A stretch of 64,000 nucleotides of DNA from Bacteroidota bacterium (lineage in GTDB: Bacteria; Bacteroidota; Bacteroidia; Bacteroidales; F082): the NCBI GenBank assembly GCA_018336075.1, contig JAGXRB010000098.1:38219-102218 (forward strand), in the 5' to 3' direction. Shown piece after piece: positions 1 through 46,755 of this stretch. The notes beneath the pieces are model-generated. The model had not been told where the DNA came from, did no database searches, and was given only the letters and a program-made list of their open reading frames with translations. Made by a program: the position numbers and the translations under genes. Position 1 is the first letter of the stretch, and the number at the start of each line of letters is the position of its first letter.

Positions 1-125
1 TATTTTGTTTCAAAATCATGGGGAACACGACGTAAAATGCCACTTTTAGCTAAAAAATCGTTCAGCCAGCTTTGGAAAGAAAGAAAAGAAGAATAGCCAA
101 CTTCATCTTTGACTTACAACCCGCA

Positions 126-38794: not shown

Positions 38795-38808
38795 TTGATG
38801 TAGATCAA
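38795..38808. promoter_or_regulatory. CRP/FNR-family type palindrome upstream of the cytochrome cluster
   Basis: TTGAT-GTAG-ATCAA, identical to the classical FNR consensus TTGAT-N4-ATCAA; overlaps a 9-bp inverted repeat GATGTAGAT-N14-ATCTACATC (38797-38828). Confidence 0.65.
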
Positions 38809-38862
38809 CTAATAAGATTATCTACATCGCTAAAAAATCAAGCAAATCTCATTAAAACGCGC

Positions 38863-38893
38863 TTGTCGGATTTGTTAATAAGTCTTAAACTTG
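38863..38893 (+). promoter_or_regulatory. Putative Bacteroidota promoter of the hexaheme gene
   Basis: TTG (38863-38865)-N20-TAAACTTG (38886-38893), close to TTTG-N19/21-TAnnTTTG. Confidence 0.5.
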
Positions 38894-38954
38894 CAGAGTA
38901 AATAGTGAAGAACCAAAAACTATTAAGAAAAGACTTTATCAAATTTAATATTTT

Positions 38955-40022
38955 ATGAAAATGATGAGAAAAATAAGTATGATGATCGCCATGATAATGG
39001 TCGCATCTTTGACATTTATGTCATGTACTAAGGAAGGTCCTGCTGGTTTACCAGGTAAGGATGGAAAAGATGGAACAAATGGTACTAACGGTATCAACGG
39101 ACAAGACGGCACTGCTGGTTGTATCGCCTGCCATGACAACAGTCAGGTTAATTTTGCTGTTACACAACAGTGGGAAATGTCTAAACATGCCACCGGTGGC
39201 TTGTATGTGCGCAACTCAAATAACTGCGCTGGTTGTCACACAAGTCAGGGTTTCCGCGAAATGATTGCAGCTGCAACTCCAAATGCCAACACCGCCGGAA
39301 CAATTCAAAACCCAGTTCCACCGAACTGCTACACTTGCCACAACATTCACTCAACCTACTCACCTGCTGACTGGTCACTAGCTACAACAGCTAATGTCAC
39401 CCTTCGCATCAAGCCTGAGGCAACACATGATTTTGGAAAAGGTAATCTTTGCGCTACCTGTCATCAGCCACGTATTCCAAGTCCAATGCCTGTTGTAGGC
39501 GGCCCAGATATTACTATTACAAGTGCAAACTGGGGACCTCACTACGGTGCTCAAGCTACGATTGTATCCGGTAAAGGTGGTGTTGAATTCGGAACCGGAT
39601 ATACCAACTCTTTCCATACTGCTGGCGTTGCTAACAGTTGTGTTGGTTGCCACGGCGGTGATGCTAACGGTATCAATGGTGGTGGACATATGTTCAATTT
39701 AGGGTATACAACTTCTACTGGTGCTGATGCTGTTATCACAACTACATGCACAAGCTGTCATACAGATGCAACATCACTTAATGCACTCATGGCTCTGAAG
39801 AAAGAGGAACTCAATACATTGTTATTGCAACTTAGACTAAGACTAAAAGATATTGGTATTATGCATGCAACCACTGACCGCATTGTTCCAGGAACATGGA
39901 CATCAGCCCAGGCAGGTGCTTTCATTAACCACAACCTTGTTAAGTATGATCACAGTAATGGTGTTCACAACTTCCCATATGCCAAGAAACTTCTTGAAAA
40001 CTCCCTTGCTGCCATTCAGTAA
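38955..40022 (+). CDS. Hexaheme c-type cytochrome lipoprotein with collagen-like (GXY)9 spacer
   Basis: Lipobox TFMSC; GPAGLPGKDGKDGTNGTNGINGQDGTA; six CXXCH (CIACH, CAGCH, CYTCH, CATCH, CVGCH, CTSCH). Confidence 0.9.
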   Translation: MKMMRKISMMIAMIMVASLTFMSCTKEGPAGLPGKDGKDGTNGTNGINGQDGTAGCIACHDNSQVNFAVTQQWEMSKHATGGLYVRNSNNCAGCHTSQGFREMIAAATPNANTAGTIQNPVPPNCYTCHNIHSTYSPADWSLATTANVTLRIKPEATHDFGKGNLCATCHQPRIPSPMPVVGGPDITITSANWGPHYGAQATIVSGKGGVEFGTGYTNSFHTAGVANSCVGCHGGDANGINGGGHMFNLGYTTSTGADAVITTTCTSCHTDATSLNALMALKKEELNTLLLQLRLRLKDIGIMHATTDRIVPGTWTSAQAGAFINHNLVKYDHSNGVHNFPYAKKLLENSLAAIQ

Positions 40023-40200: not shown

Positions 40201-40584
40201 ATGAAATCACGGCAAATACTTGCGATTTTTACACTGCTTTTGGCCGGTTTACTCACATCATGTGAGTATGAATTCATCGTTCCTGATGTGCCGGTAATTG
40301 ACCCAGAAGTACCCATCAAATTTTCAGAGCAAATTGTACCAATTTTCACGAGTGGTAATGCATGTACAGCCTGCCATAAAACAGGAAGCACTCCACCGGA
40401 TTTAACAGCCGATAGAGCCTACAATGCAATAGTTCCTGCTCTTGTCAATACAGCCGATCCTGAATCAAGCAGTATTTATTGGTATGCTCACCCAAATTCA
40501 AGCTCCCATAGCTGGAAAAAGTATTCTGCTGCTGAAGCGGCCATAATTCTGGAGTGGATCAAACAAGGAGCGAAAAATAATTAA
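40201..40584 (+). CDS. Monoheme c-type cytochrome lipoprotein
   Basis: Lipobox LLTSC; single CTACH; FSEQIVPIFTSGNACTACHKTGSTPPDLT; C-terminal EAAIILEWIKQGAKN. Confidence 0.87.
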   Translation: MKSRQILAIFTLLLAGLLTSCEYEFIVPDVPVIDPEVPIKFSEQIVPIFTSGNACTACHKTGSTPPDLTADRAYNAIVPALVNTADPESSSIYWYAHPNSSSHSWKKYSAAEAAIILEWIKQGAKNN

Positions 40585-40596
40585 TACCTAATAGAC

Positions 40597-41478
40597 ATGA
40601 AAAAGACTCTTTATATAATGATCATGATGTTGGTTTTTGGCCTAACAGGTATTGCTCAAGACGAAACATCCGAGCCGGCAAAGGAAAAGGACAGACCTGT
40701 CAGACCACCATTCCAGAGTGGGTATCTCATCGATAATCAAACTACCTATATCCCATCACAGGGGACACTTGAGTATGTGATTCAACATAAGTTCGGCAAC
40801 ATGAATAATGGGTTTTCTGATCTTTTCGGTTTATATGCTCCCGGAGCAAATGTCCGTATGGTCATGAATTATGTGGTCATGAAAAACGTTCAGGTTGGAT
40901 ACGGTCTTACACGTTTGAATATGTACAGCGACTTTAACGCGAAATGGACAATTCTTGAACAAACGAGAAACAATACTATTCCAGTAGCTGTTGGTTTGTA
41001 TGGCAATATCGCAATCGATGGACGCAATGAAAAAGCATTTGGAAAAGATTATGCTTTTACAAACAGATTGTCCTATTTTTCTCAATTGATCGTTGGCAGA
41101 AAAGTAAACGATTGGTTGTCTGTACAAGCGAATGTAAGCTTTACGCATTTCAACAAAACTGATTCTCTGATTGACCATGATAAAATTTCTGTTGGGATTA
41201 ATGGTCGTGCGCAATTTTCACCACAGTCGTCAATCCTTTTCCAGTATGATGTACCACTGAAAATTCAAGGAATTGCTGAACACAGAGAATTTACAAACCC
41301 ATCAAAACCAAACCTTGGAATAGGATGGGAAATATCTACAAGCACACACGCATTTCATCTTTTTGTTTCAACAGCCGGCGCAATTGTACCGCAGCACAAT
41401 GCGATGTACAACAACAATGACTGGACTAAAGGAGAACTGATGTTTGGGTTTTCAATTACCCGACTTTGGAGTTTTTAA
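40597..41478 (+). CDS. DUF5777-type outer-membrane beta-barrel protein
   Basis: Signal peptide; IPSQGTLEYVIQHKFGNMNNGFSDLFGLYAPGANVRMVMNY; alternating beta pattern; C-terminal aromatic residue. Confidence 0.8.
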   Translation: MKKTLYIMIMMLVFGLTGIAQDETSEPAKEKDRPVRPPFQSGYLIDNQTTYIPSQGTLEYVIQHKFGNMNNGFSDLFGLYAPGANVRMVMNYVVMKNVQVGYGLTRLNMYSDFNAKWTILEQTRNNTIPVAVGLYGNIAIDGRNEKAFGKDYAFTNRLSYFSQLIVGRKVNDWLSVQANVSFTHFNKTDSLIDHDKISVGINGRAQFSPQSSILFQYDVPLKIQGIAEHREFTNPSKPNLGIGWEISTSTHAFHLFVSTAGAIVPQHNAMYNNNDWTKGELMFGFSITRLWSF

Positions 41479-41507
41479 TATAATTAACCTCTAAAAAGGA
41501 AATCACT

Positions 41508-41924
41508 ATGAAAACAAAAATCATTATTTTAAGCATTATTTTTCTGGGATCAATGACTCTTATGTCATTAAGTTTTCCACAGGATCAGAAAAAAGGTCCT
41601 GCATGGGAAATTCCGGCAAAATACAAAAGCATGACTAACCCTGATAAAGGAGATGCTGATTCCGAGAAACTTGGAAAAGCACTTTATGCAAAACACTGCC
41701 GTTCATGTCATGGCAATACCGGGTTGGCTGATGGTCCAAAAGCTAAGAATCTTGAAACATGGCCAGGTGATTTTTCTGTTGCAAAATTCCATGCTGCTAC
41801 AGATGGTGAATTGTATTTTAAATCAATAATTGGACGTGATGAAATGCCTAATTTTGAAAAAAGCATACCAGATGAAGAGTCAAGATGGGCAATCATCAAT
41901 TATATCAGGACTTTTAAAAAGTAA
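41508..41924 (+). CDS. Small monoheme c-type cytochrome
   Basis: Signal peptide; YAKHCRSCHGNTGLADGPKAKNLETWPGDFS; ISNxxx-like distal Met (GRDEMPNF). Confidence 0.92.
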   Translation: MKTKIIILSIIFLGSMTLMSLSFPQDQKKGPAWEIPAKYKSMTNPDKGDADSEKLGKALYAKHCRSCHGNTGLADGPKAKNLETWPGDFSVAKFHAATDGELYFKSIIGRDEMPNFEKSIPDEESRWAIINYIRTFKK

Positions 41925-41978
41925 TCATTTTTGGCACAATTTTGGCATTAATTATTAACACACTTAAATTTATATGTT

Positions 41979-42398
41979 ATGAGAACTAAAATCTTTTATT
42001 TAGTATTAATCTTTGTTGGTTCGATGGCTTTCACAGCGTTCAACGTTCCACAGGATCAAAAAATTGGTGGCCCATGGGATATTCCGGCCAAGTACATCAG
42101 CATGAAGAACCCAAATAAAGCCGGTGACGCAGATGCAGAAAAACTAGGAAAAACCCTCTATGCTAAACATTGCCGTTCTTGCCACGGTAATGCCGGATTA
42201 GGTGATGGCCCAAAAGCTAAAAACCTTGAAACTTTCCCAGGCGATTTCTCAAGCGCAAAATTCCAGGCTTATAAAGATGGTGAATTGTATTTCATGTCTT
42301 ACATTGGCCGTGACGAAATGCCAAACTTTGAGAAAAACATTCCTGACGAAGAAAGTCGCTGGGCAATTGTCAGTTATATGAGATCACTGAAAAAATAA
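41979..42398 (+). CDS. Small monoheme c-type cytochrome (tandem paralog)
   Basis: YAKHCRSCHGNAGLGDGPKAKNLETFPGDFS; highly similar to 41508-41924. Confidence 0.92.
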   Translation: MRTKIFYLVLIFVGSMAFTAFNVPQDQKIGGPWDIPAKYISMKNPNKAGDADAEKLGKTLYAKHCRSCHGNAGLGDGPKAKNLETFPGDFSSAKFQAYKDGELYFMSYIGRDEMPNFEKNIPDEESRWAIVSYMRSLKK

Positions 42399-42439
42399 AA
42401 AATCTGTCTGCCAAAGGCTTAACAGTATTTGAATCAATG

Positions 42440-42495
42440 AAAGGTTTATAGCTCGGTTGTGACAGGATTACACCTAAAGTTATAAACCTTTTTTA
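42440..42495 (+). terminator. Stem-loop downstream of tandem cytochromes
   Basis: AAAGGTTTATA-N30-TATAAACCTTT followed by TTTT. Confidence 0.7.
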
Positions 42496-42596
42496 TTTGC
42501 TTGAAAGCACAGTTCTTTCCTAAACTCTATCAGCCCATATCATGATACTATACACCAAATTTTAAGCATTTTTAATGTAAATCAAAACCAAAAATC

Positions 42597-44096
42597 ATGA
42601 AACTACCAAAACATTATTTTAGCTGGACAACTTTTCTCGGAGGATTAATTGCCGTGATATCCTTGTTCATGATAATTATCTTGTTTTTAGCTTCACTTGT
42701 TTTAGGTGTAGGAGATAATTATTCGGGGCTTTTTACATTTATCATACTGCCAGCAGTGATGATTGCCGGACTTGCACTAATGTTTATTGGCTTGATCAGA
42801 AGCAGAAAGAAAAGAAGGTTGCAATCGTCTGAAACCGCAAAGCTTCCAATCGTTGACTTCAATGATCCTAAACAGCGTATGATTGTTTTTGTTCTTACAA
42901 TAGGCTTGTCCGTTTTTGTAGTTTTATCTGCTTTGGGCGGCTATCAGGCTTTTCATTACACAGAATCTAATCAATTTTGTGGTACAGTTTGTCATTCTGT
43001 TATGGAGCCTGAATATACAGCTTATCAAGGATCTGCCCACGCAAGGGTAGATTGTGTTGAATGTCATGTTGGCTCCGGAGTAAATTGGTATGTAAAATCA
43101 AAACTGTCAGGATTATATCAGGTATACTCTGTCATGGCCAATGCATACCCGCGCCCGATTCCCACGCCTTTGCATGATTTACGTCCTGCTCAGGAAACCT
43201 GTGAAAAATGCCACTGGCCTGAGAAATTCTACGATAGAAAATTTGTTTTTCACAAACATTATCTTGCTGATGAGGAGAATACGGAGTGGGATATTGCAAT
43301 GGTTATGAAAACCGGACCCGCCTATCGGGCACTTGGATTGCAGGAGGGTATCCACTGGCACATCAATTCTAATGTAAAAATTGAATATGCCTCCACAAAT
43401 ATTAAAAGAGACACCATTATTTTAGTAAAATATACAGATTTGCTTTCAGGCGAAACCCATATTTATATGGATGAAACTTATCCTTTAAATCAGGATCAGA
43501 TTTCAAATCTTGAATTCAGAACCATGGATTGTTTAGATTGCCATAACAGACCATCACATGATTATAAATCTCCGCAAAGATTTTTTGACGATGCGATGAC
43601 TTCTGGAAAAATATCCAGCGACCTGCCTGATATTAAAGTAGCTGCTATGGATATACTTCGCAATGTGTTTCCAACAAAAGACAGCGCTTTCAGTTATATT
43701 GAAAGCGAGATTTATAGCTATTATGACATGCTCTACCCCGAATTGATGGAAACTGATAAGGAAACAATAGACAGAGCAATATTGGCAATTAAAGAAGGGT
43801 ACTCGAGAAATGTTTTTCCTTACATGAAGGCTGACTGGAAAGCTTACCCAAATTTTATGGGTCATATTGAAAACGATGGATGTTACCGCTGTCATAATGA
43901 TAGATTCAAAAGCAAAAGGCAGACCAGAACCATATCACGTGATTGTACACTCTGTCATCTTATAAAGCAACAAGGACCTCCGGGTGAAATGATGTATGCT
44001 ACAGGAAATGATTTTCTGGAGTTTGTACATCCAGTTGACATAAAAGGAAAATGGAAAACGATGTTTTGTGCGGAATGTCATAAAGAATTATACTAA
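42597..44096 (+). CDS. NapC/NirT-family membrane multiheme cytochrome (six CXXCH plus one CX3CH)
   Basis: Two N-terminal TM segments then FCGTVCHSVMEPEYTAYQGSAHARVDCVECHVGSGVNWYVKSKLSG; further CEKCH, CLDCH, CYRCH, CTLCH, CAECH. Confidence 0.92.
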   Translation: MKLPKHYFSWTTFLGGLIAVISLFMIIILFLASLVLGVGDNYSGLFTFIILPAVMIAGLALMFIGLIRSRKKRRLQSSETAKLPIVDFNDPKQRMIVFVLTIGLSVFVVLSALGGYQAFHYTESNQFCGTVCHSVMEPEYTAYQGSAHARVDCVECHVGSGVNWYVKSKLSGLYQVYSVMANAYPRPIPTPLHDLRPAQETCEKCHWPEKFYDRKFVFHKHYLADEENTEWDIAMVMKTGPAYRALGLQEGIHWHINSNVKIEYASTNIKRDTIILVKYTDLLSGETHIYMDETYPLNQDQISNLEFRTMDCLDCHNRPSHDYKSPQRFFDDAMTSGKISSDLPDIKVAAMDILRNVFPTKDSAFSYIESEIYSYYDMLYPELMETDKETIDRAILAIKEGYSRNVFPYMKADWKAYPNFMGHIENDGCYRCHNDRFKSKRQTRTISRDCTLCHLIKQQGPPGEMMYATGNDFLEFVHPVDIKGKWKTMFCAECHKELY

Positions 44097-44357
44097 TTAT
44101 TTATGCTATTTATAATTGGATTATTTATAAATCAAGAATGCTAAATGTATGATATATAATGATATAAGTAAAAGCCTATATTTACGGTTTTCAAAATCAT
44201 ATTTCTGATAATAAGGAGATGTGTTGAATTTTCTTACATTCGCGAAATGAATAAAAATTTCAATTTAGCAGCACACTTTAACTGATTTTATAAAAAATAG
44301 ACACATGGGGTTTAAACCCACACAATATTACTTTAGGATTATATTAATTAACTATAT

Positions 44358-45314
44358 ATGCAAAATAAATTACTGATAACCATCATTGCCATCATGCTTA
44401 TTTGGGTGCATTTACCCGCCAGTTCACAGGTCAATATGGAGGACGAACCTGCAAACCTTGAGGGAAACAAACATTGTTTCGATTGTCATGCCAATAAAAT
44501 ATATTCCTACGAGAACGAAATGACAGGCCGCATTGATCGAAAAGCAATGAATCCTAATTTTATCTACAACCCTGATGACTTTTACAAGGGAGTTCACAGG
44601 CATTTTAGTTGTACCGACTGTCACTCTCCGGATTATGAAACTTTTCCTCATCAGGCAGAATTACGCCTTGAAGAAATGTATTCCTGCATGGATTGCCATG
44701 GCGGCGACCCTACCTATGCGCAATACCATTTTGATCTGATTGATGATGAGTTTCATAAAAGTGTTCACTCTACCAAACATGATGAGACTTTCAATTGCTG
44801 GATGTGTCATGACCCACATTCATACAGATCAATGACAAGAGGCAACTTTAAGGTTTCAGAAATAGTTACTTATCACAATAATGTTTGTGCAAGTTGTCAC
44901 GATAACCCTGATCACTTCCAACGTATAAGCGATAGTCTCAAAATGCCATTGGAGCAAATACATTCGTTTTTACCTAACTATAAACTTCATTTTTCCGCGG
45001 TGAGATGTATTGAGTGTCATACCTCTGTAGAAGATACCATGTGGGTAGCTCATAATATATTAGAAAAAGAATTGGCAGTAAAAAAATGTGTTGAGTGTCA
45101 CTCTGCAAACACAATGCTCATGTCATCACTATATAAATACCAAAATATTGAAGCACGTCGCAACAGAGGAACACTTAATGCTGTCTTTTTGAATGAATCC
45201 TATGTTATTGGTGCCAACCGAAATGTTTATCTCAATATCTTGAGTCTGGTCCTTTTTGGTATGACTATCCTGGGCATTATGATTCACGTCTACTTCCGAA
45301 TTAAAAGCAAATAA
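44358..45314 (+). CDS. Heptaheme c-type cytochrome with C-terminal TM anchor
   Basis: Signal peptide; seven CXXCH (CFDCH, CTDCH, CMDCH, CWMCH, CASCH, CIECH, CVECH); C-terminal VYLNILSLVLFGMTILGIMIHVYF. Confidence 0.92.
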   Translation: MQNKLLITIIAIMLIWVHLPASSQVNMEDEPANLEGNKHCFDCHANKIYSYENEMTGRIDRKAMNPNFIYNPDDFYKGVHRHFSCTDCHSPDYETFPHQAELRLEEMYSCMDCHGGDPTYAQYHFDLIDDEFHKSVHSTKHDETFNCWMCHDPHSYRSMTRGNFKVSEIVTYHNNVCASCHDNPDHFQRISDSLKMPLEQIHSFLPNYKLHFSAVRCIECHTSVEDTMWVAHNILEKELAVKKCVECHSANTMLMSSLYKYQNIEARRNRGTLNAVFLNESYVIGANRNVYLNILSLVLFGMTILGIMIHVYFRIKSK

Positions 45315-45317
45315 AAA

Positions 45318-45935
45318 ATGTCAGAAAAACTATATTTATATCCTGTTTGGCTGAGACTTTGGCACGGCATCAATGCCATTTTGTTTCTGGCTCTCATCGC
45401 CACCGGCATCAGCATGCAGTATTCAAGCCCAGATGCACCGCTTATTCGTTTTGACCTTGCCGTTAAGTGGCATAATATTGCCGGTGTGATCTTATCGCTC
45501 AACTACCTCATTTTTGTGCTGGGAAATCTGACTACAGGAAATGGGAAATATTACAAAATTGTGTTGAAAGGCTATGTGCAAAAAGTTCTCAAACAAATGG
45601 ACTATTATTTGCGAGGCACTTTTAAAGGTGAGCACACTCCTTTTCCTGTTACTAAAAAGAGAAAGTTTAATCCTCTGCAAAAACTTACTTATGTAGGTGC
45701 TTTGTATATGCTCATGCCTGTCATTATATTGACAGGACTTGCTTTACTATTTCCTGAATTTATCATTGATAAAGTGTTTAATTTCAGCGGAATATATTTA
45801 ACTGCTCTTTTGCACGGTGTTGTCGGATTTTTACTCTCTTTGTTTCTGGTTGTACACGTTTATTTTTCAACGATGGGATCAACCCCAACCAGTAATTTTA
45901 AGGGTATGATGAGCGGATGGCATGAGCCTCACTGA
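45318..45935 (+). CDS. Cytochrome b/b561-type membrane subunit (thiosulfate reductase / HydC-like)
   Basis: LYPVWLRLWHGINAILFLALIATGISMQY, WHNIAGVILSLNYLIFV, LHGVVGFLLSLFLVVHVYFSTMG; conserved His in TM helices. Confidence 0.9.
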   Translation: MSEKLYLYPVWLRLWHGINAILFLALIATGISMQYSSPDAPLIRFDLAVKWHNIAGVILSLNYLIFVLGNLTTGNGKYYKIVLKGYVQKVLKQMDYYLRGTFKGEHTPFPVTKKRKFNPLQKLTYVGALYMLMPVIILTGLALLFPEFIIDKVFNFSGIYLTALLHGVVGFLLSLFLVVHVYFSTMGSTPTSNFKGMMSGWHEPH

Positions 45936-46041
45936 TAATTTTATTTAAAACTACAGTGTTGTAAACTGCTGTTTCAATACTTTTGCTGACCATTAAGTTT
46001 ATATTTCTTCATCTTTGTCACTAAAATCAAAATTCAATACA

Positions 46042-46755
46042 ATGAAATCAAATCTATTTCTATTTATAGCGCTGCTGACAATTGCAGCCTGCCAGCCCAA
46101 ATCTTCTGGAGTTGACTATGCCGTTGACCCATACAACCGCACGGTCGTTGTTGACGAAGTTCTGCAAACAAGTTCTTACAGCTATCTCCAGGTTACAGAA
46201 AACAAAGAGCAATACTGGATGGCCGTTACATTGGCCGATGTTAAAAAAGGCTCTACCTATTATTTCTCTGAAGTCATGGAAATGAATGATTTCTACAGCA
46301 AAGAGCTCGACCGTAATTTTGAAAGTATATTTTTTGTCGGTAATTTAAGCGACAAACCAATTCCAGCGCAGCCACAAACAATGCAAAGTACGCCTCAAAC
46401 AGGCATCAGACCTGAAATTCAAAAACAAGATTTAAGCATAGAACCGGTTGATGGAAGTATAAGTCTGGCCGAACTTTACGAAAGAAGACTTGAACTGGAT
46501 GGCAAAACGGTTAAAGTAGTCGGTCAGGTAGCTAAGTTCAACCCAGGAATCATGAGCCGAAACTGGGTTCACATTCAGGATGGAACCGGAACCGAAGAAT
46601 TCTTTGATCTGACAGTTACTACACAAGATATGGTTTCACCAGGTGATATTATCCTTTTTGAAGGAAAGATTACACTTCAGAAAGATTTCGGATCTGGGTA
46701 TTATTATGAAATAATTATGGAAGAGGCAAAGGCTTCAAAACTGAGTTTACAATAA
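46042..46755 (+). CDS. Lipoprotein with OB-fold-like C-terminal domain
   Basis: Lipobox LLTIAAC; VVDEVLQTSSYSYLQVTENKEQYWMAV; LDGKTVKVVGQVAKFNPGIMSRNWVHIQDGTG; start at internal ATG. Confidence 0.7.
   Translation: MKSNLFLFIALLTIAACQPKSSGVDYAVDPYNRTVVVDEVLQTSSYSYLQVTENKEQYWMAVTLADVKKGSTYYFSEVMEMNDFYSKELDRNFESIFFVGNLSDKPIPAQPQTMQSTPQTGIRPEIQKQDLSIEPVDGSISLAELYERRLELDGKTVKVVGQVAKFNPGIMSRNWVHIQDGTGTEEFFDLTVTTQDMVSPGDIILFEGKITLQKDFGSGYYYEIIMEEAKASKLSLQ

Follow-up and report, generated by a model that had tools for sequence, protein, structure and literature searches.

The perfect palindrome TTGATGTAGATCAA upstream of a hexaheme cytochrome gene in the window (the whole 64 kb stretch of DNA that was analyzed) is a genuine, evolutionarily conserved site, putatively for the docking of a Crp/Fnr-type regulator, and is not a product of chance. 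Redox control of the downstream genes by a Crp/Fnr regulator is well supported by sequence comparison. The site is probably the operator of an FNR-type redox regulator, most likely the Crp/Fnr protein termed C326 here, which would control a porin/multiheme-cytochrome electron-transport operon and activate it at low oxygen via an Fe–S cluster. Oxygen or redox control by a member of the CRP/FNR family had been suggested by the first-pass annotation. Operator conservation and the respiratory nature of the target genes support redox control by a Crp/Fnr protein, and we infer the remaining parts of this reading, namely the identity of the binding paralogue, the Fe–S cluster, the nature of the signal (oxygen), and the sign of control (activation, not repression).

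The operator and the regulator are of a known kind. An FNR-type TTGATnnnnATCAA regulon in Bacteroidota, the far-upstream tandem arrangement of sites, and CX2CX2C spacing of the regulator cysteines were not found in the literature searched. Oxygen/redox control in Bacteroidota is poorly known, and the present site would provide a candidate regulator and operator, open to test, for an operon of porin and multiheme cytochromes such as is associated with extracellular or anaerobic respiration; this operon is spread over about ten genera of one family.

Conservation of the Palindrome and Layout of the Promoter

As claimed in the first-pass annotation, the palindrome corresponds to the FNR consensus TTGAT-N4-ATCAA; the agreement is exact, and the sequence is identical to the Escherichia coli FNR operator TTGATnnnnATCAA and is the sole 0-mismatch TTGATNNNNATCAA in the 64 kb window (Table 1). 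The promoter-like TTG-N20-TAAACTTG, described as lying about 55 bp downstream, is likewise an exact match, with 54 bp between the palindrome and the TTG. A related sequence with one mismatch, TTAATGTAAATCAA, is located at positions 42572-42585, only 12 bp 5′ of the start of the NapC/NirT-like gene. This site was rejected as an operator, as it is missing from every relative checked.

The 4.79 Mb genome contains the bare pattern TTGAT-N4-ATCAA 30 times, mostly within genes (seven of the 30 copies are intergenic). Corresponding palindromes with spacers of N0–N14 (15 in all) sum to 436 places, or about 29 per spacer, and N4 is therefore not over-represented. Genome-wide enrichment of the bare FNR pattern, which had been proposed as a check, was thus not found, and the sequence alone is weak proof because of this lack of enrichment.

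Conservation provides a different type of evidence. Orthologues of the hexaheme gene were detected at E ≤ 1e-30 in 39 of 173 family genomes, the relatives in the genome scan being mostly metagenome-assembled genomes of Bacteroidales/Bacteroidota, and 40 upstream regions were examined, in which the palindrome was sought 50–250 bp 5′ of the hexaheme gene. With no more than one mismatch, the N4 palindrome is present in 31 of the 40 regions and is perfect in 18; for the other 14 spacers (0–14), the same 40 regions yield 0–7 cases with at most one mismatch and 0–2 perfect ones. Palindromes with at most one mismatch were found in 2.8% of shuffled controls and in 1.7% of segments taken at random from these loci. 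It is because of this conservation at a fixed position in the orthologues that the palindrome is not attributed to chance.

Among 18 closer relatives, mean column identity amounts to 0.87 for the palindrome, 0.77 for the −33 element, and 0.86 for the −7 element, compared with 0.33–0.45 between and around these conserved elements. The G005 protein is 95% identical, and the palindrome of this relative differs at two positions, both within the unspecified N4 (giving TTGATTTATATCAA). More distant hexaheme homologues also have sites upstream. The divergently oriented neighbor varies (a 277-aa gene, a purH-like gene, or an asnB-like gene), and the site remains with the hexaheme gene.

The putative promoter is of the Bacteroidota −33/−7 type (TTTG/TTG and TAnnTTTG about 20 bp apart), and TTG-N20-TAnnnTTG is conserved in orthologues. 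Numbered from the operator, TTG is found at +68 in 14 of 31 orthologues, and TAnnnTTG at +91 in 20 of 31 and at +89 or +90 in most others. In every orthologue with a site of at most one mismatch and a recognizable TTG-N20-TAnnnTTG, the distance from the operator start to the −33 TTG is exactly 68 bp; the operator–promoter distance is fixed although the intervening DNA diverges.

The palindrome overlaps a 9-bp inverted repeat, GATGTAGAT (38797-38805)-N14-ATCTACATC (38820-38828), to which the first-pass annotation had drawn attention. The repeat is exact in this sequence and is not a conserved element, in that it pairs at 9/9 in this genome only and at 1–8/9 elsewhere. It is no separate element and arises from the inner portion of the primary site opposite a site at +22, a putative degenerate operator that supplies its right arm. 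In a scan of 28 deduplicated promoters with the primary-site PWM, the second-best peak is at +22 (z 4.5); ATC occurs at +9 in 27 of the 28 and again at +31 in 18, and a conserved block covers +26..35 (identity 0.64). A right-half PWM peak follows at +44 (z 3.4), with TC at +54 in 19 of these 28 promoters and a conserved block at +48..58 (identity 0.72). As judged from these alignments, the promoter layout consists of one strong putative operator followed at 22-bp intervals by two weaker half-sites, each interval being about two helical turns.

TABLE 1. Features of the cytochrome promoter and cluster, and sites at nqrA in other loci.
Feature	Position	Strand	Remarks
Primary Crp/Fnr-family operator (putative), TTGATGTAGATCAA	38795..38808	.	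Center about −95 from the inferred start; conserved in orthologues
Second, degenerate operator (putative), ATTATCTACATCGC	38817..38830	.	22 bp downstream; right half TANATC conserved
Third, half-site-like block (...AAATCTCAT)	38839..38852	.	44 bp downstream; TCA(T) part conserved
−33 element TTG, Bacteroidota-type promoter	38863..38865	+	68 bp from operator start in orthologues with TTG-N20-TAnnnTTG
−7 element TAAACTTG	38886..38893	+	Inferred transcription start near 38897
Hexaheme c-type cytochrome lipoprotein, 355 aa (putatively regulated gene)	38955..40022	+	MtrC/MtrF-like heme domains, collagen-like GXX stretch
Rest of conserved cluster	40201..46755	+	Gene order kept in most relatives
Small heme lipoprotein	40201-40584	+	
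DUF5777 beta-barrel	40597-41478	+	
Two monoheme cytochromes c	41508-42398	+	
NapC/NirT-like protein	42597-44096	+	
Multiheme c7-like protein	44358-45314	+	
Cytochrome b561-like protein	45318-45935	+	
OB-like lipoprotein	46015-46755	+	
nqrA/T9SS plug sites	L221 (G005), L245 (G003), L227 (G007), L234 (G171), L236 (G004), L075:7596-7609 (G000)		

Respiratory Genes Sharing the Site and Candidate Regulators

A refined motif, KTGATNTANATCAA, which uses the conserved inner TA, has four copies in this genome and is found at 1–6 distinct places per genome in 11 relatives, with control matches of 0–2 per strand; in G001 and G011, the hexaheme promoter is the sole copy. As the hexaheme sites served to derive the motif, only the figures for non-hexaheme sites are independent. 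Altogether, 41 distinct sites were found in the 12 genomes, 27 of which are intergenic (11 hexaheme promoters and 16 others). These tallies of sites and neighbors were made by hand from listings, and the sites at G004 C18 and G035 C33 were counted as intergenic, the overlying ORFs being spurious or over-long. Electron-transport genes flank 25 of the 27 intergenic sites, and two have no respiratory neighbor. The probability of at least 15 intergenic sites among the 30 non-hexaheme sites is 7e-6 to 2e-4, assuming an intergenic fraction of 0.15–0.2. The refined motif, unlike the bare pattern, may show the enrichment near respiratory genes anticipated in the first-pass annotation. A motif so rare and precise permits prediction of respiratory genes in uncultured relatives.

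The largest non-hexaheme group comprises six sites, in six genomes, in the intergenic region shared by nqrA (Na+-NQR) and a T9SS plug gene (Table 1). The relatives are kin to each other, and these cases therefore do not represent six independent events; in this genome (G000), nqrA lies beyond the contig end, and the assignment is based on the homologous region of G005. Three sites are located between a gene for an octaheme tetrathionate-reductase-family cytochrome and a Crp/Fnr gene, and two are upstream of heme (cytochrome) lipoproteins. Single cases are upstream of cydA, of an SCO-like gene (assigned by inspection; no family match) followed by that for cytochrome c oxidase subunit I, and of an ArrA/PhsA-like molybdopterin oxidoreductase gene.

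The CRP/FNR homologue presupposed by the first-pass annotation is present: the genome encodes eight cNMP-domain proteins, four of which are Crp/Fnr regulators that also have the HTH_Crp_2 domain, and three have FNR-like cysteines. Sequence features and linkage point to the C326 protein (C326:6238-6939) as most likely the best candidate for the regulator. It has the two-domain Crp/Fnr architecture (PF00027, 58.4 bits; PF13545, 56.1 bits). In 14 genomes, a C326 homologue and the hexaheme gene are transcribed divergently, with a gap of usually 230–390 bp (about 1.3 kb in two). In 21 other genomes, including this one, the C326 orthologue is located elsewhere, and this set is disjoint from the 14.

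CX2CX2C is present close to the N-terminus of all 21 of these orthologues, along with a cysteine aligned with E. coli FNR C122, and all keep the recognition-helix Glu and Arg (TKESxTR), E209 and R213 being invariant. C326 thus resembles E. coli FNR in its cNMP-like domain, HTH_Crp_2, three N-terminal cysteines and C122-aligned cysteine, E209, and R213, and the respiratory target genes are a further likeness. It differs in having CX2CX2C rather than CX2CX5C, and in its recognition helix, in which Lys replaces Val at 208 and Thr replaces Ser at 212. The protein falls short of the curated Fnr family cut-off (NF008365, 47.9 vs. 228 bits) and is therefore regarded as FNR-like and not filed as Fnr. 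Several hexaheme-linked regulators of the C326-related clade have no N-terminal cysteines, and because of this an Fe–S cluster is not universal for regulators of this operator. Residues R180 and E181 of CRP are correlated with site positions G3 and A6 (PMC1274295). The C326 protein has Lys at CRP position 180 and Glu at 181, which would fit TTGA and not TGTGA, i.e., T at motif position 3.

In the promoter of the C326 regulator gene itself (L190, about 76 bp upstream of 6238), TTAATTTAAATCAA directly precedes the −7 element TAGTTTTG, and similar one-mismatch sites are found in the promoters of several C326 orthologues. Autorepression of the C326 regulator is possible.

Among Crp/Fnr proteins of Bacteroidota, those of Porphyromonas gingivalis, i.e., CrpPg (PG0396, PDB 2GAU), PgRsp, and HcpR, can also be compared. 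Of the sequences with solved structures, that of 2GAU is nearest to the C326 protein (76 bits), and the 2GAU recognition helix lacks the Glu, unlike that of C326. HcpR senses NO through heme (PMC6955866). A TTGATnnnnATCAA regulon is not described for CrpPg, PgRsp, or HcpR in the available parts of the literature on them.

Direction and Signal of Control

In the preferred reading, the four conserved cysteines of C326 would hold an oxygen-labile Fe–S cluster, and the Fe–S form of the C326-type protein would dimerize under low oxygen. A dimer would then occupy TTGATGTAGATCAA about 95 bp upstream of the transcription start, and more dimers or weakly bound subunits may occupy the degenerate copies at +22 and +44, the three sites, spaced by two turns of the helix, all facing roughly the same side of the DNA. 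The distance between the bound regulators and RNA polymerase on the −33/−7 promoter would be fixed, and the regulators would contact the enzyme. In this manner, the cytochrome operon would be switched on together with a small respiratory set (Na+-NQR and the octaheme cytochrome), to which cydA, cytochrome oxidase, and the molybdopterin reductase would be added in relatives. More tentatively, uncultured Bacteroidales may have an FNR-like regulon with a CX2CX2C-type regulator, in which one perfect operator near −95 and two conserved half-sites in exact 22-bp steps, all fixed in position with respect to the −33/−7 promoter, would form a short array that reaches RNA polymerase from far upstream.

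The operator near −95, the tandem half-sites in 22-bp steps, and the Bacteroidota −33/−7 promoter are all unlike the E. coli FNR system. In E. coli, the sites of FNR-activated promoters are mostly at −41.5, and sites at −50.5, −71.5, −96.5, and −98.5 belong to the repressed class (PMC3688515). The operator lies at about −95 and not at −41.5, the usual position for an activator in E. coli. Repression is therefore a serious alternative, albeit a less probable one: tandem occupation at about −95, −73, and −51 would bar the contacts of RNA polymerase, and the operon would be shut when the regulator is active. The two extra half-sites between operator and promoter would suit such an arrangement, as would the positions of the repressed class. 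Repression at the ndh promoter of E. coli uses a pair of FNR sites separated by 44 bp. However, the targets include genes for anaerobic-type reductases and the bd oxidase, which are typically induced, and the invariant distance of 68 bp also suits class I activation, which is known for CRP near −92.5.

Activation by C326 remains the favored reading, and the main rival to this protein as the regulator is its paralogue C274. C274 might act at the same operator, alone or in competition with C326, and the signal would then not be oxygen via Fe–S, the FNR cysteines being absent from this protein. C274 has a palindrome in its own promoter (TTGATCTGTATCAA, 73 bp upstream of its gene), and TTGAT-N4-RTCAA is kept in the promoters of 10 of 11 C274 orthologues. 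On contig C274 of G000, the perfect palindrome TTGATACAGATCAA (L025:5728-5741) lies between this Crp/Fnr gene and the divergently encoded octaheme tetrathionate-reductase-family cytochrome, and the C274 recognition helix, VESIAR, is FNR-like at V208/E209/R213. Control by C274 is nevertheless unlikely: no close orthologue (at least 65% identity) was found in G006, G172, G173, G168, G169, and G174, where the hexaheme operator is perfect and C326 orthologues are present in all six, and the divergent linkage with the hexaheme gene belongs to the C326-related clade.

With a similarly low probability, the operator may be read by a Crp/Fnr regulator of the DNR, NnrR, or HcpR type that responds to NO/nitrite or another signal instead of oxygen. 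The motifs of the DNR and FNR types closely resemble each other (PMC8510549), these regulators likewise have FNR-like palindromes and frequent divergent regulator–target linkage (PMC1274295), and the linked regulators that lack N-terminal cysteines are compatible with such a signal. In contrast, the four cysteines are present in 21 of 21 C326 orthologues, and HcpR, DNR, and NnrR do not have the FNR cysteine motif; their targets are hcp and denitrification genes, and the Bacteroides HcpR2 site is GTAACnnnnGTTAC (PMC1274295). The targets found here are general respiratory genes, with none for denitrification.

Finally, a chance palindrome, or a DNA or RNA hairpin formed by the 9-bp inverted repeat, is so improbable that it can be set aside: the genome does contain 30 instances of the bare pattern and the single strand of the repeat folds with significance here (z −4.4), but the palindrome is fixed in position in 31 of 40 orthologues, 9/9 pairing is unique to this genome, the repeat is upstream of the promoter and therefore outside the inferred transcript, and no Rfam match was found. 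The repeat was rejected as a second regulator site on the same grounds.

The Cytochrome Cluster

The hexaheme gene has six CXXCH motifs and is followed by the cluster listed in Table 1. No NCBIfam equivalog scores above its cut-off among the parts of the cluster, which is accordingly not assigned to a named pathway. In G000, contig C403 (L034) encodes a DnaA/replication-like protein that looks foreign compared with the rest, and the assembly is listed with 8.58% contamination. In G007, the hexaheme gene is present a second time, on contig C73 (L052), with a single in-frame stop at the edge of the contig; this copy is either a pseudogene or an assembly error. The two monoheme cytochrome c genes are in tandem and very similar (138 and 139 aa), and probably result from duplication; many relatives seem to carry one.
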